Shown: one piece after another, positions 3,828 to 44,434 of the stretch
How positions within the stretch are numbered: position 1 is the first letter of the stretch
Layout of the letters: each line of letters starts with the position of its first letter
DNA from: a virus
DNA length: 55,290 nt
IMG/VR virus record: IMGVR_UViG_3300032006_000008
Coordinates: 1-55,290 of that record
Strand: one strand, 5' to 3'
Notes under the pieces: model-generated
The model's input: the letters and a program-made list of their open reading frames with translations, nothing else
Told to the model about the DNA's origin: nothing
Databases searched by the model: none
Translations under genes and position numbers: made by a program

Positions 3828-4465
3828 TATGTAAATACTCCTTGTTTTGTTACAGACTTCTCTAGATAGACTTCTCCATTTATTTGCCTTGTTATTACCG
3901 AAGTATCATTATGTTTAGATATTAAATCCCAATACCCAGTAAATGTATCATCTAGAACAGCTGTCTTACTTGCATCTAAAGTCATTTTGTATGTATCTCC
4001 ATCTGAGTCTATTGACGCAATTCCATTTAGTGTTAAAAATCCTGCTTCGCCTACCAATAAAGATATACTTCCTTCTGTTCCTGACCCTACTCCTGATGGC
4101 AAAGAAACTGTAGGTTGAGTACTATATCCAGAGCCTGCGTCAGTTATGGTTACAGATGTAATCTTTCCACCTGATATTACACAAGTTGCAGCTGCGTTAG
4201 TTGCTCCTGATATTACTCCATTTCCACCAGAAAGTGATAATGTATAAGTCCCATCCGTATAATCCTTTCCAGCATTATTAACAACATAAGCTACTATTTT
4301 GTTAGCTTCGTCATCTCCAGTAAATGCAGTCTGTGAATAATCCTTAGATATTCTTGCAACCAATTCATTCTTCTCTATCACAAAAGAAGTTTCAAAGGTT
4401 ACAGTCTCTTCTAATGACTCATCTTGATATATTGTCAAGTTAATATAGTCGGTAGTAGAAGCCAT
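3827..4465 (-). CDS. Tail structural protein with beta-repeat module
   Basis: 212 residues. The N-terminal part (DYINLTIYQDESLEETVTFE) looks like a compact phage structural domain. The middle contains GGKITSVTITDAGSGYSTQP, a repeat unit seen in phage neck and tail proteins. The gene lies between connector-like genes and fibre genes, with six bases to the previous gene and a one-base overlap with the next. Function otherwise unrecognised. Confidence 0.65.
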   Translation of the reverse strand: MASTTDYINLTIYQDESLEETVTFETSFVIEKNELVARISKDYSQTAFTGDDEANKIVAYVVNNAGKDYTDGTYTLSLSGGNGVISGATNAAATCVISGGKITSVTITDAGSGYSTQPTVSLPSGVGSGTEGSISLLVGEAGFLTLNGIASIDSDGDTYKMTLDASKTAVLDDTFTGYWDLISKHNDTSVITRQINGEVYLEKSVTKQGVFT

Positions 4466-18000: not shown

Positions 18001-18060
18001 GTCTTATTTTATGTTTACCTAAAAAAGTTATATCATTTTGATGCTCAGACATATTTACCC

Positions 18061-18111
18061 CCCATATGGGTGGTTAGTTGGTTTCGGATTCCCCAACTTC
18101 AATTGGAATCC
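18061..18111 (+). promoter_or_regulatory. Inverted repeats in the early leader
   Basis: CCCATATGGG (18061-18070) is a perfect 10-base palindrome. Downstream, GGATTCC (18086-18092) pairs with GGAATCC (18105-18111), and CCAA (18093-18096) can pair with TTGG (18103-18106). GTTGG (18077-18081) can alternatively pair with CCAAC (18093-18097). These give competing hairpins just before the first early gene. They may be an operator, a hairpin promoter or an RNA leader switch. Confidence 0.5.
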
Positions 18112-18135
18112 ATTTACCTTAGAAAGGGGTAACTG

Positions 18136-18360
18136 ATGTTCTTATTAATGACAATCAAGGGCGATGATGGCAAGTCTCGCAAGTTCTTAACACCTTTAAC
18201 TGGATTATTTGAGATTAAGGGTATGGAAGGCGACATACTCGTACACTTTGCGAGTGGTGGCAAGGCTATCATAGCACAGGATGAAGTGGACCAGATGTAT
18301 GCAGATGCACAGAAGGTGTTGAATGGCGATACTACGAAGTACGTTCCAGGTAGCAAGTAG
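18136..18360 (+). CDS. First early gene, hypothetical, atypical codon use
   Basis: 74 residues, MFLLMTIKGDDGKSRKFLTP... A second in-frame ATG at 18148 (MTIKGDDG) is an alternative start; RBS AAAGGGG lies six bases before the first ATG. The sequence looks like a small alpha/beta domain with FEIKGMEGDILVHFASGGKA. Codon use differs from all neighbours: every lysine codon (8 of 8) is AAG and glycine is mostly GGC, whereas flanking genes use AAA and GGA. This suggests recent transfer or selection for very high early expression. No family recognised. Confidence 0.75.
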   Translation: MFLLMTIKGDDGKSRKFLTPLTGLFEIKGMEGDILVHFASGGKAIIAQDEVDQMYADAQKVLNGDTTKYVPGSK

Positions 18361-18361
18361 T

Positions 18362-18450
18362 CCTCCAATTGCGGGGGAGATTGTCTAAAAAATGGGATAT
18401 GTGGCTATAAAGACATAGAAACTTAGCTAGACACTGATAGTCATATATCC
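18362..18450 (+). ncRNA. Structured RNA element A (long stem, possible pseudoknot)
   Basis: The 117-base gap after the first early gene holds CCTCC (18362-18366)/GGGGG (18373-18377), a 5-bp hairpin. It is followed by GGATATGTGGCTAT (18395-18408) pairing with ATAGTCATATATCC (18437-18450): 14 bp without a gap, including two G-U pairs. The 28-base loop contains TAGACA (18428-18433), complementary to TGTCTA (18382-18387) in the 5' flank, so a pseudoknot is possible. There is no T-run after it, so it is not a standard terminator. Function unknown. Confidence 0.6.
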
Positions 18451-18477
18451 TATTTATACTACTAAAATCAAAATAAC

Positions 18478-18690
18478 ATGGGTAATAACATGAACTCAAC
18501 AATAAAACTAAAATACGATGAACTAGAAACTCTTAAATCCCTAATAAATTTATATATGCAAAGCGATGGCAAGGTAATTGAAAACAATTGGCACAACAAC
18601 AATGCAAGTACAAATATCTTTCACAATGAAGTAATTGAAATATCTAATAAGATAACTGTTTCATTAACAAATCAATACAGGGAAGAATAA
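18478..18690 (+). CDS. Early hypothetical protein
   Basis: 70 residues (MGNNMNSTIKLKYDELETLK); an in-frame ATG at 18490 is an alternative start. No Shine-Dalgarno sequence precedes either ATG, unlike most genes of this operon, and the structured element A lies just upstream. The protein is polar and helical with Asn-rich middle. No recognised family. Confidence 0.6.
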   Translation: MGNNMNSTIKLKYDELETLKSLINLYMQSDGKVIENNWHNNNASTNIFHNEVIEISNKITVSLTNQYREE

Positions 18691-19670: not shown

Positions 19671-19861
19671 GCATGATAGTATGTTATACTTGTGGCGAAA
19701 TAAAAACTCCACTACCACAAGGTGACATTTACAAAATATATGCTTGTAGAAAATGCCTAGAGCACTTTAAATCAATTGATAAGATAAAAAATTATCATAA
19801 ATTTAAGGAGAAAACTAATAATGGGGCTGAAACGAACCAGCTTAGACTTAGACTGGTATGA
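19667..19861 (+). CDS. Small zinc-ribbon protein
   Basis: 64 residues. CYTCGE (C6, C9) and ACRKC (C27, C30) form a two-CxxC zinc ribbon; the C-terminal tail is basic. It overlaps the previous gene by four bases (ATGA) and the next by 41. Such small ribbons in phages often bind nucleic acid or host transcription proteins; the target here is unknown. Confidence 0.65.
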   Translation: MSMIVCYTCGEIKTPLPQGDIYKIYACRKCLEHFKSIDKIKNYHKFKEKTNNGAETNQLRLRLV

Positions 19862-20069
19862 ATTAATTACTTGCCAAAGAGCAGTCAATAGGTATTTAAG
19901 GGAAACGAGGAAAGCGATTACTGCTAACCACAAAAGAGGATGGGAGCCAGAGCCGGGTAAACGAGATGTAAATAAACTCTCTTTGCAAAGTGCTCTGGTT
20001 CTCAATGACAAAATATCCGAAGAAATCAAAAGAATAAAAAGGATAGGAAAATATGAGGAAAAATATTAA
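19821..20069 (+). CDS. Early hypothetical protein
   Basis: 82 residues, MGLKRTSLDLDWYELITCQR. It is basic and helical with a conserved-looking WYELITCQRAVNRYL segment. RBS AAGGAGAAAACTAATA precedes ATG. It overlaps both neighbours. No recognised family. Confidence 0.65.
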   Translation: MGLKRTSLDLDWYELITCQRAVNRYLRETRKAITANHKRGWEPEPGKRDVNKLSLQSALVLNDKISEEIKRIKRIGKYEEKY

Positions 20070-26724: not shown

Positions 26725-26965
26725 AACACTTTGGAATGGATTTGCCTCTATAAGCACCATTTTAATTGAAAGATGTAAAAGGAAAAAAGAGAATCTTGAA
26801 ATACAGCATGGTGATTCTATAATGGTAATACCGCTAGATAAATTAGATAGTCCTGATTGGATTCATAAAAAATCTTTTAAGGATAAATTTAAAAATAGGA
26901 AATATAGGTTATATAACTTTAAATTTGAGGAGACAAGGAATGTTAATCAAGAAAGCTTACTTTAA
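26708..26965 (+). CDS. Small hypothetical protein
   Basis: 85 residues, basic, with LEIQHGDSIMVIPLDKLDSP in the middle and KFKNRKYRLYNFKF at the C-terminal side. It overlaps the previous gene by 17 bases. It is followed at once by structured element C, whose stem begins at its stop codon. No recognised family. Confidence 0.6.
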   Translation: MKIKSKTLWNGFASISTILIERCKRKKENLEIQHGDSIMVIPLDKLDSPDWIHKKSFKDKFKNRKYRLYNFKFEETRNVNQESLL

Positions 26966-27031
26966 TTGGGGCTGGCTTCCTCTTGTTCATTTCCCTCATC
27001 CTCAATCCTCATCACAAAAGCTAGCCCCAAT
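26965..27031 (+). ncRNA. Structured RNA element C with CCTC-rich loop
   Basis: ATTGGGGCTGGCTT (26965-26978) pairs with AAGCTAGCCCCAAT (27018-27031): 14 bp with a single G-U pair. The 39-base loop is pyrimidine-rich and holds four CCTC words (26979, 26994, 27000, 27007), the core of the 16S anti-Shine-Dalgarno sequence. The next gene has AGAGGG as RBS (27041 region), which a loop CCTCT can pair with. It may control translation of the next gene or bind other RBSs. No T-run follows. Confidence 0.65.
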
Positions 27032-35100: not shown

Positions 35101-35879
35101 TGCTCCCCTATTACCTCCTCAACAATGGGATAATCATACCTTTCCTTATGCATAGTTCTGAATCTAATGTCTTCTAGATTTTTATAATTCCTTAATGTTG
35201 AGAGAACTCTTTTAGTAAAAAACCCATTAATTTCTCCATAGGCATCAACAAATGGCTGTTGCATATCAAATATTGATTCATTAAGACTTGTTATTTTATC
35301 TAAAATCAGAACACCTGCCCCAGTCTCTTCTTGAGTTGCAACCATTCTAAATATATCCCTTGAATACTCATTCCAGTTCCCAAGCTTCTTCTTTGGTTTT
35401 ACCCTTACAAACCTATCTACCATTTGAGAATATTTTTTTATTAATGGGACATTTAAGTGATTAAGATTCATCAAAGGAAATCCTAGATAATTATAAGACA
35501 TTACATTTACTGCATCTATAATTTGATGATTGGGCATTACAAACAGAGTCTTAGCCATAACATCAGCAGCGTGCTTAGCTAGGTCATTGTATATTTTATA
35601 ATGCAATCTTAGTCTTAATTTCTCACTTTTCAATCTCCCCACCATTACTTTTCTTCTTTTCTTTATCTCTTTTACTCTTTTATAATCTTTTAGAGATTTT
35701 TGTAATAGAAGTTCTTTATCTAAAGCTTTTATTTCTATTTCAAAACCAGTAGATAAATCTTTTGGTTGTCCAATTGACTGGTTTAAAGAACCAAGAATAG
35801 ACGTTGTTAAAGACTTAGCCTCTTCTTTTGTTACTTTAGACTCAAATAAAACGTTACAATAGTCTGCTGCTCTGCTCAT
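32118..35879 (-). CDS. Large presumed ejection protein (1,253 residues)
   Basis: 1,253 residues, mostly helical and charged, with no enzyme motif that I recognise. The C-terminal third has hydrophobic segments (MLGLLVAGQM; LPVIVNVLLSLVKG) and a motif-rich stretch ARVNVKNTMFGMSREYFPKM, FGGLFGVVGFQFKTYTFAQW that recalls large virion-associated proteins of other phages. Its start overlaps the giant gene by four bases (ATGA). Size, gene order (end of the tail/internal protein cluster) and partial membrane character suggest ejection into the host with the genome. It may be a partner of the RNA-polymerase-like protein. Confidence 0.75.
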   Translation of the reverse strand: MSRAADYCNVLFESKVTKEEAKSLTTSILGSLNQSIGQPKDLSTGFEIEIKALDKELLLQKSLKDYKRVKEIKKRRKVMVGRLKSEKLRLRLHYKIYNDLAKHAADVMAKTLFVMPNHQIIDAVNVMSYNYLGFPLMNLNHLNVPLIKKYSQMVDRFVRVKPKKKLGNWNEYSRDIFRMVATQEETGAGVLILDKITSLNESIFDMQQPFVDAYGEINGFFTKRVLSTLRNYKNLEDIRFRTMHKERYDYPIVEEVIGEQVTERISKELVVDKHFDDLTREKQEDLIRDDYIRLLSDLADGRVRYIVPTLYQNLTEEEKDFLTTYRKEYTTEFGEAYQGPSHHEMIINQQEKNGVESVWVMMKRNEDGSEPNNQHEYYAAVMIRRGGIDPQTGEYMWVPTIGAQMDGMWEGTGMREGFHEATQHTQYDYTIGDSNKNVDSYSDFEYLERQPIDEIAGINNKTQNPGQYNIWQALQLKREQNAKFINMVEEEIEATNKILNEAKILAEKKMKQDAMEDYKEILEYIEDIGGMAANLATMRDGAIAGWDTFTKKVTQNYSPQVYTKDTYWDDVDEAIAQSGGMINALKGELQDSEEIINDFKQGVSTGEQLVTPQEFYFHMNRKARLESKIKSLEDMRDGMQDMKTLALDDPYNPKNIRKMKLATRSHFTKHRKTFTNPLNRRRDIDLDRDYTNRFVTAIQYSRLKAELLKAMIIIESPEMRRWLINQTKISLKDLSYDAGFLGFKYGFQESADRINAIRGRNGQTSPVTSRQVSKWASNHNNWVSGNVLNWLSSITNMTQMESLIEDWGFRDTLAVRGMMKDAEVLDAVEASGVDDLITAYTDYMAGGDESSTPWHTFMSARLNWSLLKMNKKDFINKNTGIDRWLMRLLPQKDQDNYEALRKQRAAFWLQMNHLKKILSKKENIDNIKENDIREAVATRKEILILKKRIKDLNQSLNSSQINQLASWMLTWQISESAKSLFTFSGVELFMRRRAAIQGMLLAEKLGQLDANKEGNKYKQAPSLIMARVNVKNTMFGMSREYFPKMFGGLFGVVGFQFKTYTFAQWVREYNIMEQFFSESGGFFHVPGWSSRLLTAGKRKVTRTLTGEKLGYGDLIASGNPKFDLSAERMFTFLAIRGGMSVLTVLSTFAPGISLANSILRRFLPMPMGNSVRGAQSVTISFILRTLMLGLLVAGQMTEDEEEQYVKDWQFFFLPVIVNVLLSLVKGEGWAGLRAYVPGANVMNDIYETIDEDY

Positions 35880-38800
35880 TTTGTTTTACAATTTCCTAAT
35901 TTTTCTAATAATTTATATGAACCATCATCAAATGTTGCTAATTTTATTTTAGCCCCTACAGCAGGCTCTGAATCAGGAGCATCTCTATATACCTCTGCAA
36001 ACTTGCTACCAAACAATCTAAAAAACCTTCCATCAATTAAATCCATTGGTAAAAAATGGCTCACATTTCTTATCCTGTCAACCCTTAGAGAGCCTTCTCC
36101 CCTTAATTTTAATTTCTCAGCCCTTTGAGACAGCTCTTCTTTAGTCGCTTCTATTTTATTTTCTAGATGGTCTATAGTCTCTTTTAATAAAACTGTTTGA
36201 TTATAGGCAGAATCAAGGTTTGATTTTATTCTTTGAAAATTGGCATATTGAGCTTTATTTTTAAAATCTTGAGATGAGAGACCCTTTTTAGAAGTTAAAA
36301 GTTCATAATCACCCTCTTGGGTGAGTTCCATAGAAACACTCTTTCCATAATCAACCATCTGATTACTTACGCCTTGATGTAATTGTAATTGCCCTAAATA
36401 TTCTCTTTTATATCTCTTAAGCTGATTGGATTCTTTCATATTTTCAATTCTAATATCTCTAAACTTTAACCTAAGAGAAGCAGGAATCATGTCTTGTATT
36501 GTAGATGTCCCGCTAAAGAAAGATAGGGAAGAAACAAATCTTGCTCCATCTGATAGTGCATTGAAATGAGGAAGCCACTGAGAAATAAAATGATTATTAA
36601 AAACAACATCATGGTCAATCTTTGCTACATTCAATTCTATTTCATCAATCAAAGTATTTTTTTCATTTACAACTTGAAGTAACATATAAAATTCTTTATT
36701 CATCTTTCTAGCAAATGCAAGACCTGTAACTATATCATTATCTGATAATTCATATTCTTTAACCAAAGCTGAAAGTTTAGCTGCTCCTTCTGGTCCTGGC
36801 TTTCCAACTATAGCCTGCATAGCCATATACCTTGCATTGTCCTCTTGATTTTTTGACATCTGTAAAAAGTTTGGCATATCATCTATCTGATTATCAACCA
36901 TATGTTTCCAAAGAGAAGCGACTGTATCTTCTAAATATGTTGTAGGAACTGTCTTGTCTCCTTCTTTAATATTATTAAATTGAACATCGTTAATAACAAG
37001 AGGTCTTTGAGGTCTTCTTTGAGCTCTCATCTCTTCCATCATTCTTGCATTATAATCTTTAAATACCTTTTTAGGAACTTTTAAATCTAAAGACATAATA
37101 TCTTGAACTTGCTCTGCTACAGTCTTATTAGTTCTATCATAAACAACTTTGCTCATCTCAGTCAGCTTTTCTGCTCCAACATAACTTTGGTCTTCGTCTC
37201 TTCCTTGCCTTACTTCGCTTGTTTTAAAATGATTAACAACTTTTTTTACTAGTGTCTGAGCTTCCTTATGACCAGAGACTATCTCATTACCCTCTTTATC
37301 TATAATCTTAAATGTTCTACTTCTAATAAACGTAACAAAATTTTCTATAACACCTATAGATGTTTGGCGACCATATAAAGTGCTCCACCAAAGAGCTAGT
37401 AATCCTTTTGTACTTTCATCAAAAGAAGCCTGCTGGATAATAGCCATCTCCCTATCGCTTGTTGTCTTTAGATATTTTACTCCATCTATAACAACTATGG
37501 AGTCACCAATCGGAATATTCTCTTGAACAATATCATCACGAAGTGGAGCATAGTCCATTATTACTTCTTCATCAATTGCTCTTTGAGTTAGGATTACATC
37601 TTGATAGTAATGCCCACTAAAATTTATAGCTAAACCTTTATGATTAAGAGAAGACCTCATAGTTCTAGCGTTTTGCACCATGCCGACTTGAGTTCCAGTT
37701 TCAAAATTATTAGCAATTTCTGTCACTACATTTGGGGTGGTTGGAGTAAATACCTTTTGAGGGTCTGCAAATATATCTAAAGGAATTTGATATACCATAC
37801 TTTTATACTCATCAGTATAATCATACTTATCCCCTGATTTCTGCCATTGAAAATCAATTAATTCTTTAGTTAGCTCCCTGTCCCATTTCCTACTAGTTAC
37901 AGCATCTCCGTCAAAATCTTGTTCTAGCATTTTTTTCATAGTATCATGCATAAAGACAACATCCCCATAATCTCTATATAGAAAATGTGCAATTTCTAAC
38001 ATTTGAGGATTTGTAAAGTGCTGAATTGGAAATCTGTAAAACTGTTCCCACCTATCTTTACTTGGGTCTGGTGGATTATTTTTCAGAAAATCATTAATAG
38101 CGTCTACCTGTTTTCTTCTTCCCTCTCTTGTATTGCCCCATTTGTTCCATTTTTCTACAACTTGTTTGGCTTGCCCATATAGATATGCATCAACTACTAT
38201 ATTCCATGAAACATCAAAGGGGGTTGCTCCATATTGATGAGGTTCTAATATGCCATGAAAATCTGGAATAACATGACTATAATTAGCAGCTTGAAAGCGA
38301 CTTGCTTTTGTAGGCTTCCTTGATTTAACTCTACCTCTAAAAGCTCCATCAACAACAAACCTATTTTTTATCATACCAACTTGAGGGTTAGAAAAATGGC
38401 TATGTAACAATATTGCGAATGAATCTGGGTCTTCTTCTAACATTTCTATAGACTTTGATAAATCAGATTTTGTAATGGTTTGGCTTTTCTGCAAGCTCTT
38501 TAGCCACTTCGCAAGTATATTTGGATTTTCTCTCATAGCAGAAATAGAGTTAAAATAATCTTTTTGATTTGTCTTTACTGCTTCAATTAGCTTATCAAAT
38601 AGAGGTGCTATGTCTGGGTTAGTGGTTATCATATCTTGCCATTGGTCAAACCATTGGAAAGGAGCAGTTCCACTTCCTTTAGAAAAGAAGTTAGAGTTCA
38701 TTAATATTCTAATATCCCCAGGCTCCATATAGTTAACTGTATTAGCAACATCATAGTTACCCTGTGCCATCTTTTTTTCTTCATTTGAAAAGACTTCATC

Positions 38801-41800
38801 CAATGGAATACCTTCAGCAGTTTTTATCTCCACTGAGGTATTATTTTCATTCCATCTAGATGTCCAAATCATTCTATCGCCTGGCTGTGGAGTTCTTGTT
38901 TCATCGCTATATTCATAAACAGTTATTCCAGCAGGAGCTAAAGTATTTAGTCCCTTTACCTGTATATAATCCTCACTATTCTCAGACATTTTTCTATCAA
39001 AAGTTTTTATCCAGCCTGGGAGATTGTCCAACTTATCTTGCTCTGGCATTCTTCCAAGAGGGACTGCTAGTTCAGAAAAGTAATTAGTAGATGATGGCTT
39101 ATTACCATCCCAAATATAATCCCCATTTTCATCCATTAGAGGAATAATTTTCCCAGTCACATCACTTATTGCATATGAGTTTTTATAATCAAACCATAAA
39201 TATGGAAAAGATGTAGCCCCTTCTGCGTTAACACCATCAGCAAACTCATTATTGTATCTTTTAAAATGAGCGGACATAGGATACCCTAGAACTTCATGAA
39301 GAGATTTTGTTCCATGAGTTTTTTGTATCCATCTGTATCTACCAACTATAGCAACAGCTAATTCAACAGCCTCTCCTCTAGCTAAGTTTACATCCTCTTT
39401 CATCTCATCGGCTTGATTTTGCGTTATATTTCCCTTCTCAACTTCTCCATCAAACCAAGCATCTGTATTGTCTTGCTCTCTCGCTATTGTTACATCATCT
39501 ACATCAGAAACACCTATAACTAGAGACTTACCTTTACCTCCCTTACTTGCGACAAGGAAAGCTGGGTATCTCATTTTATTAAATCTTCTATATCCGAATG
39601 CTAATTCCATATTTAATTGGTCTAAAGCATTTTTATCAAGAGTAAAAAATTCATCTTGGAATACCCACAGTTTCCTTAAATCAAACTTTGTTGGGTCGCC
39701 TTCTTGGTATGGATTTTTTTTATGAGCTCTTCTAATTCGTGTAGTATATATATCATTAGCACTTAAAAGGAATACTCTATCATGCATATCAGGGTTAGCT
39801 TCTAAGAAATTAGCTAACACAAAATCAGAATAATTTATCCCATTTACAGGATTAACTTGAGTTTGGCTATGCAATCTCTTGTCTGACTCACCAAGCTTTC
39901 TAGTCCTTCCATCATCTCCTTTTTCAACATTATTTAAAACAAGAGCTCCCCTGTCTCCTCTAGGTATAGAATTTATAATATTGTGATAATGACTGTTTAT
40001 AATATTGTAATTTCTATTAGACTGCTCTTCACTAACATCAACATTAAAAGATTCTTGCAGATATTCATAAAACTCTTCTCTTTCCATTTTGAGATTAGAG
40101 GCTGGTTTTATATAATCACCGCCTTCTTTTTTCCAAGTTCCCTTTCCTCTTGACCAAATATCCCATCTAATATCATTCCAATCATCAATGGTCATCCTCT
40201 CTCCAGAGTATTCTTCTATTAAATTCTTTAAATTCTGAGCATCTTTACCAACTTGTTCTTCTCTTTTATGCTGACCTATCAAATCATCATATGTATCTGG
40301 ATAGTCATCTGCTAGACCTTCTTGATTTTCCCAATCAATATTATCAGTCATATCTCCAACATATCTCTCTAAATCCAGTCTCATAGTCTTAGTGAATGCT
40401 TTACCAAAAGAACCCAAGTCTTCACCAACTGTAAAAAATCTTCTGTTAGATAAGTTTGTAACTCTTCCTATTTCATGACTTTTAGCCCATTTAGAAAACC
40501 AATCTTTTAAAACTTTTGTGTATTTAAATTTAAATCTTAGTTTTCTTATTTGCTTAATTACTCCATTATAGAATCTTTTAAATAATTGTTTTTCAGATAA
40601 TCCAATATTATTATAAGCCTTCTTAAATTCAATCCAAGCTGCTTGAAAATGCTTAGAGGCTGCTACGAAATCACTATCAGGTAATGGATTCATAGCAAAC
40701 TTATTAAGGTCTATTTTGAGTAAAGCTTGAAAAGCTTTTAATATCTCATAAGCTGCTTTTGTAAAATGATTTTGTTTGTCAGTAGAAGATTCTTGATATT
40801 TTTGATTAAATCCTCTTATTCTGTTTAAGAAATTATCAGTACTTCCATATCTTTGCTTAATCGTTTCAATTATCTTATCAACCATCATCTGTCTTTGAGA
40901 ATCATCTTTAAAATTATCATTATACTGACCTAAGAGTTGGTCAATAGCAGTTTCTATTCCAACTCCATCAATATTCTTTTGCTCAAAACTTGTCATAGCT
41001 AACAATGCTTTGGCTAAAGGAGAAAGGCTTTTAAATTCTCTGTCTATCTGGCTAGATTTACTTTTATTTTTTCCAGTCCTATTTTTTATAAATTCTGAAA
41101 CGTCTGTATCTGGTAAAGACTCACTTGCCATAGCTCTATCAAAGTCTGTTGTTCTTCCAGTGTTTTGTTCTCTTTTTTCATCTACGTCTTCTTTAGTATC
41201 TTGACTGACATCAGCTTTCTTTAAATCACCAACCGACATTCCTGTTAGCTCCATCATCTCCTGATATGACATATCCCCCATTCTCTTCGCTCCTCCCAAC
41301 TGAGAAGCATCTACGGTTTCATATTTTGAAGGCTTTTGCTTTTGAGCTGGTGGAGTAGGTGAGCTATCCTGCTCTTGTTTTAGACTTCTTATTGATGAGA
41401 CAATGGCTTTTGCTATTTTTTTCTTGTTTGCTACACTATAAGATAATTCTCCGTTTTTCTTTTTAGCCACAGTTTCATCTTTAAGTAGTCCTTTTTTTAT
41501 AGATGGAAATTCTTCTAATGTATTATTTAATTGAGTAGCTGTTAGCGATGATAAAAATTTTGTAGGATTCTCTTTAGATTCAAGCTCTCCTATTATCTTT
41601 CCTCTTTTTACTTCTTGTGGGTCTTTAGATGGCTTATATGGAGTTCTTTTATTAATGTCATCCCCAAGCTCCTTTTTAACCTTTTCGTATCTCTTTCTAC
41701 CTTCTTCAGTATGTCTATATACTTCTTCATCTAACGCTTGTTCTGCTTTTCTTTCATATTCTTTCTCAGGCTCTTTTTCTGATGGTGCAGTAAATATATT

Positions 41801-44434
41801 TGTTAATTCTTTTTCAAAACTTGTATACTTACTTTCAGCATCGTGTATACCCTCAGTCGCGTCAATAATGGCTTGCTCCTCAGAAAGTCTTTGATTAACA
41901 AGACTATCTACAAAGTCTTTTCCCTTCTTACCTTTGATAATAATCTTTGGGTCACCTTTTTTACTTTGCCCTGTTAAACTACTTCCTAAGCTTCTCCCTT
42001 TTTTAAACCCTAATTCACCAGTAACAAACATTCCAATCATCTCATCTAATTGTCTATTAATAGTATCTTCATCTGCCGCTAGATTTTCATTTGAGGACAG
42101 TGAAGGAAATATTTTCTTTATATACTCTCTTGCTAATATTAATGCATTTTCCTTTGATTGCTCATCCATCTCTTCTAGGATGCCCATGCCGCTTGGGTTC
42201 TTCATAAGTATATTTAATACCTGAGCTCCAACATCCTTATCTTGACTTGATTGCCTACCTCCAATCTCTTGCATAGCTTTAACAACTTCATTATCAGTTC
42301 TTAAGTTTCTATACTCATCTAAATTATATCCTCCGTCTTTAGCTATCTTCTTTAACCACATCCCCCAAGTCATATTGTCAACATGGTCTTCAGACTTAGC
42401 CTCCTCAGACAGATTACTTCCTACTAACTGACCTTGAGTGTAATTTCTTCCAAGAGTTTCTTGTAAATCTTGATTAATTTCCTCATCTAGCTCAGATTCA
42501 ATAGATTGTTTCTTAGCTCTATTAGCAAGAACTCTAATACCACCTGCTCCCACTCCAAAGACACCACCACCTAATAGTCCCCCAAATCCCTCAGCGAACA
42601 TTTGTTGCTTGTCAAACACATCATCAAACGTCTGGTCAGGTCTAACTTGTCCCAATGCTACAGCATTTTGAAATCTTTCATTAATTCCCTGAAAGACTTC
42701 TTCAACCATCTCTATTGTACCTTGCTTGAGAATATTGTATGCAAAATCTGCGTCTCTATTTTTCCATCCTTGTCTAAATCTATTCTTATTTGAGTTCCAT
42801 GCAGTCCTAGCTATTCCCTTTTTAGGAATAGAAGCCCTAGCTGCTTTAGCAATTGAAGGGATTCTTAACATCTCTAACATTGTATTAACAACACCAGTCT
42901 GAAGCCAAGCTGTGGAAGCTAAATCTAATGCCTCCATCTCTGTAAGAGTTCCATCCTTGACTTCTTTTTCCATGAGCTCTCCAAAGACTTCATCAAAAGA
43001 ACCTCCAGCTTGTTGACTAAACATAAATGCACTTGACAATGCATAAACAGTTGGACTCTTAGCTGTTAGTGAGTTAACAACCATAGCTACAGACGCAACC
43101 ATTGAAGGAGCTGATGTGATTAGTAAGTCTCTACCCCATGCCCATGTTTTACCATCTCCATCTAATATATCAGAGAACTTTTGACCAATTCCTCTCTCCA
43201 TCATGTCTTGTTGAAAAAGTGCATAAGCTAGAGCCTCAGGGTCTTTTTGAATAGCAGCTTCCATCTCAGCTCTTGCTAGTTTGTTTGCCTCCTTTAACCC
43301 TCCGTAACTCCAATCCTTCCCAAGCATCATCCCAACTGATTTCATCAAATTTGGAGCTTTTTTCATTTGAGCGAGCTTTTCTTCTGGCTCTAGTATATAT
43401 CTAATGTTTTCTGGCGAGAGTTCGTCTTTTGTAGCTGTTTCAAGTTTTTGTACTTTAATATTTAAACTAGCTTTGAATTGGTCTTCTAATGCTTTATCAT
43501 TTAATAGAAAATTATCATGGGAAGAACCACCATCATCTTTCTTTACCTCTTCCTCTTCTCTTACTTTATTTTGTAAAGAATCATAGACTGTAGAATCTGG
43601 AACAGACTGAAATGATTTTTCATCAATTCCTAGCATATTAGCTAAGTCTTTAGATATAATGTGACCACTACCTGTTCTAAAGTTATTTTCATCCTCAGAT
43701 TGCATAGTAATAGCTGGAACATTTATTGTTTCCATACTATCTATTCTGCCAGATGATTCTGCAATCATAACAGCTTTAGCTGTATCAGCGTCTTCTCCAA
43801 ACATCTCATCTATATGATTTAGATACTTTTCATCTAATCCATATGTTTTAGCTATTGTAGTGTTGTCTAGACCAAGAAACGGCTTATGAAGACCCTCTCT
43901 ATGCGTTGTCCACCTTTTCCATCCTTCTTTCTTTTTTAATCTAGATGCATATTCAATATTTTGCTCTGGGGTCATATCCGATGGAGGAACAAACTTTCCC
44001 CAGACTAATTTTTGATTATCTACACCTTGATAATGGTCATTTATTTGAAATAATCCATGACTATGGGTTTTTTTGAGATTTTTCTTAGGGTCAGGACCTT
44101 CGGGTGTAAAGTCTCCATAAATACCACTCTGTAAATTTTCCCAGTGCTCTCTTAATGATACAGTATTTTGAGCATTATGAGCCTGCAAAGCTTGCCCTCC
44201 ACTTCTAAGTGGGGTAGCTAAGTCTACATTACCAAATGCTCTTCTCCAGTCAGGACCGTAAGAATCTAGACCTCTGACTATTTCTTCTGCTTTTTCAGGG
44301 GATTGGTCTTGTAGAAGCTGTATTACAACTTCTCTATCTGGCTTATTCTGAGCTTGTGAAAGAGTCCAAAAACCGGTTTCTACATATTGTCCTCTTGCCC
44401 AACTAGCTAATTCCTGGAGTGAATATCCATTCAT
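35876..44434 (-). CDS. Giant virion protein: RNA polymerase beta-prime-like barrel plus transglycosylase-like N terminus
   Basis: 2,852 residues. At the N terminus, SHGLFQIN (125-132), GWKRWTTHREG (171-181) and AKAVMIAESSGRID (219-232, Glu226) are motifs of SLT/phage-lysozyme folds, but in the reverse of the usual order. Ala/Val-rich segments around 430-520 and 620-640 could insert in membrane. The block 2030-2177 matches the RNA polymerase beta-prime double-psi barrel region: GAFR...SR, HQYGATP (2066-2072), RFPIQH (2134-2139), VVFMH (2159-2163) and the catalytic DFDGD (2173-2177). The beta-type barrel with its lysines was not located. Known parallels are N4 vRNAP and crAss-like phage gp66, which are packaged, ejected and transcribe early genes. 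Overlap with the next gene is ATGA. Polymerase activity is inferred. Confidence 0.75.
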   Translation of the reverse strand: MNGYSLQELASWARGQYVETGFWTLSQAQNKPDREVVIQLLQDQSPEKAEEIVRGLDSYGPDWRRAFGNVDLATPLRSGGQALQAHNAQNTVSLREHWENLQSGIYGDFTPEGPDPKKNLKKTHSHGLFQINDHYQGVDNQKLVWGKFVPPSDMTPEQNIEYASRLKKKEGWKRWTTHREGLHKPFLGLDNTTIAKTYGLDEKYLNHIDEMFGEDADTAKAVMIAESSGRIDSMETINVPAITMQSEDENNFRTGSGHIISKDLANMLGIDEKSFQSVPDSTVYDSLQNKVREEEEVKKDDGGSSHDNFLLNDKALEDQFKASLNIKVQKLETATKDELSPENIRYILEPEEKLAQMKKAPNLMKSVGMMLGKDWSYGGLKEANKLARAEMEAAIQKDPEALAYALFQQDMMERGIGQKFSDILDGDGKTWAWGRDLLITSAPSMVASVAMVVNSLTAKSPTVYALSSAFMFSQQAGGSFDEVFGELMEKEVKDGTLTEMEALDLASTAWLQTGVVNTMLEMLRIPSIAKAARASIPKKGIARTAWNSNKNRFRQGWKNRDADFAYNILKQGTIEMVEEVFQGINERFQNAVALGQVRPDQTFDDVFDKQQMFAEGFGGLLGGGVFGVGAGGIRVLANRAKKQSIESELDEEINQDLQETLGRNYTQGQLVGSNLSEEAKSEDHVDNMTWGMWLKKIAKDGGYNLDEYRNLRTDNEVVKAMQEIGGRQSSQDKDVGAQVLNILMKNPSGMGILEEMDEQSKENALILAREYIKKIFPSLSSNENLAADEDTINRQLDEMIGMFVTGELGFKKGRSLGSSLTGQSKKGDPKIIIKGKKGKDFVDSLVNQRLSEEQAIIDATEGIHDAESKYTSFEKELTNIFTAPSEKEPEKEYERKAEQALDEEVYRHTEEGRKRYEKVKKELGDDINKRTPYKPSKDPQEVKRGKIIGELESKENPTKFLSSLTATQLNNTLEEFPSIKKGLLKDETVAKKKNGELSYSVANKKKIAKAIVSSIRSLKQEQDSSPTPPAQKQKPSKYETVDASQLGGAKRMGDMSYQEMMELTGMSVGDLKKADVSQDTKEDVDEKREQNTGRTTDFDRAMASESLPDTDVSEFIKNRTGKNKSKSSQIDREFKSLSPLAKALLAMTSFEQKNIDGVGIETAIDQLLGQYNDNFKDDSQRQMMVDKIIETIKQRYGSTDNFLNRIRGFNQKYQESSTDKQNHFTKAAYEILKAFQALLKIDLNKFAMNPLPDSDFVAASKHFQAAWIEFKKAYNNIGLSEKQLFKRFYNGVIKQIRKLRFKFKYTKVLKDWFSKWAKSHEIGRVTNLSNRRFFTVGEDLGSFGKAFTKTMRLDLERYVGDMTDNIDWENQEGLADDYPDTYDDLIGQHKREEQVGKDAQNLKNLIEEYSGERMTIDDWNDIRWDIWSRGKGTWKKEGGDYIKPASNLKMEREEFYEYLQESFNVDVSEEQSNRNYNIINSHYHNIINSIPRGDRGALVLNNVEKGDDGRTRKLGESDKRLHSQTQVNPVNGINYSDFVLANFLEANPDMHDRVFLLSANDIYTTRIRRAHKKNPYQEGDPTKFDLRKLWVFQDEFFTLDKNALDQLNMELAFGYRRFNKMRYPAFLVASKGGKGKSLVIGVSDVDDVTIAREQDNTDAWFDGEVEKGNITQNQADEMKEDVNLARGEAVELAVAIVGRYRWIQKTHGTKSLHEVLGYPMSAHFKRYNNEFADGVNAEGATSFPYLWFDYKNSYAISDVTGKIIPLMDENGDYIWDGNKPSSTNYFSELAVPLGRMPEQDKLDNLPGWIKTFDRKMSENSEDYIQVKGLNTLAPAGITVYEYSDETRTPQPGDRMIWTSRWNENNTSVEIKTAEGIPLDEVFSNEEKKMAQGNYDVANTVNYMEPGDIRILMNSNFFSKGSGTAPFQWFDQWQDMITTNPDIAPLFDKLIEAVKTNQKDYFNSISAMRENPNILAKWLKSLQKSQTITKSDLSKSIEMLEEDPDSFAILLHSHFSNPQVGMIKNRFVVDGAFRGRVKSRKPTKASRFQAANYSHVIPDFHGILEPHQYGATPFDVSWNIVVDAYLYGQAKQVVEKWNKWGNTREGRRKQVDAINDFLKNNPPDPSKDRWEQFYRFPIQHFTNPQMLEIAHFLYRDYGDVVFMHDTMKKMLEQDFDGDAVTSRKWDRELTKELIDFQWQKSGDKYDYTDEYKSMVYQIPLDIFADPQKVFTPTTPNVVTEIANNFETGTQVGMVQNARTMRSSLNHKGLAINFSGHYYQDVILTQRAIDEEVIMDYAPLRDDIVQENIPIGDSIVVIDGVKYLKTTSDREMAIIQQASFDESTKGLLALWWSTLYGRQTSIGVIENFVTFIRSRTFKIIDKEGNEIVSGHKEAQTLVKKVVNHFKTSEVRQGRDEDQSYVGAEKLTEMSKVVYDRTNKTVAEQVQDIMSLDLKVPKKVFKDYNARMMEEMRAQRRPQRPLVINDVQFNNIKEGDKTVPTTYLEDTVASLWKHMVDNQIDDMPNFLQMSKNQEDNARYMAMQAIVGKPGPEGAAKLSALVKEYELSDNDIVTGLAFARKMNKEFYMLLQVVNEKNTLIDEIELNVAKIDHDVVFNNHFISQWLPHFNALSDGARFVSSLSFFSGTSTIQDMIPASLRLKFRDIRIENMKESNQLKRYKREYLGQLQLHQGVSNQMVDYGKSVSMELTQEGDYELLTSKKGLSSQDFKNKAQYANFQRIKSNLDSAYNQTVLLKETIDHLENKIEATKEELSQRAEKLKLRGEGSLRVDRIRNVSHFLPMDLIDGRFFRLFGSKFAEVYRDAPDSEPAVGAKIKLATFDDGSYKLLEKLGNCKTK

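Follow-up and report, generated by a model that had tools for sequence, protein, structure and literature searches.

The bacterial enzyme most obviously suited to reading a long double-stranded stem such as the one described here is RNase III, and in lambda the RNase III hairpin of the N leader precedes the first major early gene. The early RNA of T7 contains five RNase III sites (PMC4858673). In the phage lineage considered here, which counts its environmental relatives in the hundreds and lacks any close relative in culture, the hairpin follows gene 1 and precedes a long series of co-directional early genes, of which it marks the entry. In the literature searched, mainly titles and abstracts, no description of this hairpin was found; we place it with the phage intercistronic RNA stems, a known type. 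Our leading but tentative interpretation, to which we give a little less than an even chance, is that, located where the early operon begins, it serves as an intercistronic signal made of double-stranded RNA, either for RNase III processing or for protection of the mRNA.

The locus and its 19-bp stem

The window, by which we mean the whole stretch of DNA that was analyzed, comprises the 55,290 bases of a linear virus record in IMG/VR. According to the ORF list, its structural genes are directed leftward. The early and replication genes occupy about 18.1 to 31.7 kb and have the opposite direction; this rightward block encodes a single-strand annealing protein, a PD-(D/E)XK nuclease, and a DnaB-type helicase. 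The large terminase is only about 24% identical to those of cultured phages, a 520-aa protein that is presumably the major head protein had zero matches in the comparison with cultured phages, and a search against cultured phages at the DNA level found little. In IMG/VR, at least 599 stretches contain relatives of the terminase, the best 80 of which are 74-93% identical. No family was found for gene 1 in Pfam or PHROG, and a search of viral contigs with it yielded little; distant homologs of gene 1 are located at the equivalent place in relatives L201, L002, L203, and L003.

Table 1. Features of the hairpin region (positions in the window)
Feature	Position	Strand	Basis or remark
Gene 1 (74 aa), the first to run rightward	18136..18360	+	ORF list; stop codon just 5' of the element
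Short GC-rich hairpin TCCTCC-AATTGC-GGGGGA	18361..18378	+	Fold; directly 3' of the gene 1 stop codon
TGTCTA, complementary to loop TAGACA (18428-18433)	18382..18387	+	Pseudoknot not supported
5' arm of the stem, AAATGGGATATGTGGCTAT	18390..18408	+	Fold; compensatory changes against L201
Apical loop, 28 nt	18409..18436	+	27 of 28 bases as in L201; other relatives differ
3' arm of the stem, ATAGTCATATATCCTATTT	18437..18455	+	Fold; comparison with L201
Conserved motif AACATGGGTAATAAC (family consensus AACWTGGGNAWWAAC)	18475..18489	+	50 relatives; just 3' of the stem
Gene 2, which opens the main early operon	18478..18690	+	ORF list; annotated start 18478, 18490 likelier

The reported hairpin exists, and its extent is greater than first described. 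The first-pass annotation had reported an uninterrupted stem of 14 bp with two G-U pairs and a 28-base loop, in an element ending at 18450; the uninterrupted pairing, the presence of G-U pairs, and the exact loop were recovered, but the stem has 19 bp with three G-U pairs, and the element had been cut too short at its 3' end (Table 1). Folded alone as plus-strand RNA, the hairpin has an energy of -24.7 kcal/mol (z -6.3), and 110 nt of the plus strand reach -34.5 kcal/mol (z -5.2), whereas folding of the minus strand gave no signal (z 0.0 and +0.6). The same plus strand folded as single-stranded DNA yielded only -8.1 kcal/mol. The stem is the longest in the whole window, and its 19 continuous pairs correspond to approximately two helical turns of double-stranded RNA, formed from the transcribed plus strand only. 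Known RNA families (ribozymes, riboswitches, tRNA, and sRNA) were rejected as candidates due to the lack of an Rfam covariance-model match: Rfam returned none at the gathering threshold in the window and none at E values up to 5 in positions 18050-18500, and a tRNA search found none.

Other paired stretches were also noted in the plus strand of the window. The leader of gene 1 contains a second small hairpin, AGTTGG...CCAACT, at 18076-18098, with apparent compensation in L201, L203, L002, and L003. A 13-bp stem at 19941-20004 is located inside the ORF at 19821-20069, and its counterpart in the homologous gene of L209/L201 is strong as well. Exactly between two early-operon genes, at 26965-27031, there is a 14-bp stem with a 39-nt loop, for which the folding energy alone was not significant (z -1.2); in a related record, L313, these two genes adjoin each other directly, without it, and this hairpin looks, by this comparison, to have been inserted or lost.

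The short GC-rich hairpin that was reported to precede the stem was also recovered, with TCCTCC (18361-18366) pairing with GGGGGA (18373-18378), and GC hairpins of differing sequence are located at the equivalent place in L002, L003, L201, and L203. A terminator scan found no hairpin bearing a U-run at 18361-18455, and an intrinsic terminator was rejected because neither the GC hairpin nor the long stem is followed by a U-run in the window. Only 11 bases separate the GC hairpin from the stem, and since no promoter fits into those 11 bases, the stem would have to arise from transcription through gene 1. We infer that this region of the window is transcribed as one RNA, and the gene arrangement fits an early polycistronic RNA. 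Several relatives have a U-tailed terminator between gene 1 and the hairpin, and the RNA in those genomes would therefore need read-through or a promoter of its own.

The complementarity between TGTCTA, just upstream of the stem, and TAGACA in its loop exists as previously noted, although the pseudoknot proposed from it was not supported. Six Watson-Crick pairs between flank and loop arise in approximately 4.5% of shuffles (p about 0.045), which is marginal. TGTCTA is joined to the foot of the stem by a linker of 2 nt (18388-18389), while TAGACA is located in the loop at the top of the stem; in RNA geometry two bases cannot span 19 bp, and the two pairings exclude each other within a single molecule. 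L203 retains at most four pairs of the match, and L002 and L003 lack it. An H-type pseudoknot was thus rejected, as its second helix is neither compatible with the first nor conserved. The two words could instead act in a cis-regulator of gene 2 or the early operon, that is, a leader controlling the translation start or read-through as an attenuator, antiterminator, or switch, possibly through the TGTCTA/TAGACA pairing. The likely start of gene 2, which lacks a good Shine-Dalgarno sequence, is located 34 bases beyond the stem, and in L201 TGTCTA has become TGTTTA, which retains the pairing with TAGACA through a G-U pair. However, the alternative consists of six weak pairs set against a stem of -24.7 kcal/mol and is lost in two of the lineages, and the stem varies freely and leaves the start region uncovered in the window, so that we regard a cis-regulator as unlikely.

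Conservation of pairing among relatives

Five window-like lineages were read: the window, L201, L002 (the same contig as L202), L203, and the L003 group (L003 with L004, L206, and a truncated L205). All five have a long stem at the equivalent place, and the stem sequences are unlike that of the window except in L201; the hairpin family has no common sequence. In a hand alignment of the arms with one gap per side, L201 keeps all 16 inner pairs of the 19 in the window; two of these pairs are changed on both sides in a compensatory manner (A-U to G-C and U-A to G-C), and two show a consistent single change (G-U to A-U). Three basal pairs are lost in L201 and one A is bulged. Upstream of its homologous hairpin, the sequence of L201 is unrelated to that of the window. 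There, directly before the homologous hairpin, at about 4080-4170 on the minus strand, L201 has an additional long stem that branches at its top, and the two together fold with z -4.3.

The loops of the window and L201 are identical at 27 of 28 positions although the surrounding non-coding flanks have diverged, and this, together with the discrete strong fold, would suit a trans-acting phage small RNA in which the stem presents a functional loop. On the other hand, an exact pattern search with the loop found one other contig only, so that the loop is common to just two genomes, the loops of other relatives differ in sequence and range from about 9 to 80 nt, and the window provides neither a promoter of its own nor a U-tailed terminator for such an RNA, which makes a discrete small RNA very unlikely in our judgment.

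A wider set of relatives was gathered by an alignment-based search with a neighboring 258-aa protein (A1), which has a weak match to terminase small subunits and relatives at 53-84% identity. In many of them gene 1 is followed by a long stem, often behind a true U-tailed terminator, and selection maintains a stem length of about 13-24 bp at this spot. In 50 relatives, the 5' part of each genome was matched against the 3' part of the same genome and against those of the others; 42% of cognate pairs ranked within the best 5% of non-cognate pairs on the plus strand, compared with 8% on the minus strand, with a fixed cut that missed stems located further upstream (L002, L263, and L282). Among the mispairs in the stems of 20 representatives, G-U outnumbered A-C by 54 to 7 (p = 4e-10, an optimistic value, as the related genomes are not fully independent). 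The scoring for this count treats both mispairs alike, and its stricter penalties were chosen after an earlier, looser symmetric scoring, too permissive, had given a weaker difference in the same direction (GT 187, AC 137). Furthermore, a separate clade of nine genomes shares an 18-pair stem with 99.4% of cells paired and three pairs changed on both sides; none of 500 shuffles was as good, and slid controls reached 37-51%, a comparison that leans in favor of the stem, since the structure was derived from those same sequences. The hairpin is not universal, because a sister clade (L006 to L028) has no clear stem at this spot and short repeats instead.

These results bear on the possibility of a chance palindrome or of a DNA-level structure without an RNA function. 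Among 120 first-order shuffled genomes, one had a stem of at least 19 bp, and some relatives are stemless; the cognate-arm test, the covariation counts, and the strand asymmetry argue against it, and we find this explanation hardly credible. A hairpin in single-stranded DNA, in the style of the N4 virion-polymerase promoters, was likewise disfavored by the G-U asymmetry and the weak folding as DNA. Homologs without compensatory changes were sought as counter-evidence to the RNA-level function proposed in the first-pass annotation, and the opposite was found. A function of the plus-strand RNA is strongly supported by the compensatory changes, the excess of G-U over A-C, and the strand-specific cognate pairing, and the comparisons show plus-strand pairing, compensatory evolution, and a conserved position. 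As judged from these alignments, it is clearly the RNA shape that is under selection, since the letters change rapidly while the pairing is preserved.

Because the stem is kept while its sequence and loop are free, the double-stranded RNA itself is probably the useful part. For the double-stranded RNA signal that we favor, the rightward early transcript running from gene 1 into the early operon would form the hairpin, and the host RNase III, which is specific for double strands, would cut or bind the stem. Cleavage would set the message of gene 1 apart from that of the early operon and leave a protected RNA end adjacent to the first ribosome-binding region. RNase III as the reader of the stem, or simple protection of the mRNA, is our suggestion from the form of the stem.

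The adjoining motif and a possible origin

The conserved motif just 3' of the stem suggests that the site has a further function. The motif set consists of 50 non-redundant examples collected with a fuzzy pattern; a first, shorter pattern had returned mostly chance matches. The copy beside the hairpin is the sole perfect match in the window, and exactly one copy was found in 13 of 17 records of relatives, while the reversed control gave none. The absence of a Shine-Dalgarno sequence, as previously noted for the next gene, is true for the ATG at 18478, but 18490 is the likelier gene 2 start, because the ATG at 18478 sits inside the conserved motif, the motif of most relatives contains no ATG, and in L201 a different gene begins at the position of ATG 18490. 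L201 has no gene 2, and its next gene begins directly after the conserved motif; this arrangement suggests a gene gain or loss at the junction (18478-18690).

The motif adjoins an AT-rich stretch, which raises the possibility of a replication origin, in which motif and AT-rich stretch would form the initiator site and the hairpin would act as plus-strand RNA (a primer or an R-loop transcript) or as a single-strand priming hairpin. In five genomes of the sister clade (L006, L014, L025, L027, and L028), units such as TGTGGATAA, which are DnaA-box-like repeats (TGTGKATAA), occur in 11-bp steps upstream of the motif, at the spot equivalent to that of the stem, and the last two units form TGTGGATAACATGGGGATAAAC. 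This suggests an iteron-type origin in that clade, and the conserved motif looks like the last unit of an array of initiator sites. An origin at this place is plausible for the window because of this resemblance and because the phage encodes a DnaB-type helicase. In addition, the GC skew changes sign near 18 kb, although this switch coincides with the switch in gene direction and is thus confounded. However, DnaA boxes in the window number 2 against 3.5 expected, with none at the element, and the motif has no adjoining repeats; a DnaA-box or iteron origin in the window itself was rejected, as there are no clustered boxes and clusters occur in the sister clade only. The ratio of G-U over A-C of about 8:1 favors RNA over a hairpin in single-stranded DNA. 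Taken as a whole, an origin is unlikely, although it is the main rival of the interpretation that we favor; if true, it would link an RNA stem with the initiator site in phage replication. It is also conceivable, though distinctly unlikely, that the hairpin and the motif form one RNA-assisted control site, either an origin or an early switch, in which, in some lineages, a freely evolving RNA stem replaces the initiator-binding repeats of others. If so, the site would be built in a manner not described before, in an abundant lineage of uncultured phages.

A virion RNA polymerase with the conserved motif as its promoter was set aside. A protein of 2852 aa (35876-44434, minus strand) contains DFDGD at residues 2173-2177, the catalytic motif of two-barrel RNA polymerases, for instance that of the P23-45 tail-tape fusion. 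This protein has no match in Pfam or PHROGs and was not found in 15 relatives, and the DFDGD is possibly a coincidence.

Comparison with known systems

The retained pairing, the free sequence and loop, and the adjoining motif narrow the possible functions to processing or protection through double-stranded RNA, the reading that we prefer, or an RNA-assisted origin. The iteron and DnaA-box origins of phages and plasmids resemble the site in their conserved motif and AT-rich stretch and, in the sister clade, in the 11-bp repeats, whereas the window has neither repeats nor DnaA boxes at the element and its structured part is plus-strand RNA. Intrinsic terminators are alike in having a GC hairpin directly after gene 1, but in the window a U-run follows neither this hairpin nor the long stem. 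In contrast to the lambda N leader, the present locus revealed neither nut-like boxes nor an N-like gene, nor any sign of autoregulation. The closest likeness is to the RNase III sites of the T7 early mRNA, such as R1.1, in which a long intercistronic stem is likewise located at a gene boundary (PMC4858673). In those sites, too, the stem counts more than the sequence. In contrast to T7, the present locus has one site, placed at the operon entry, with 19 continuous pairs, a 28-nt loop, and putative cleavage, and in this unrelated lineage of uncultured phages a conserved single-copy motif adjoins the stem.
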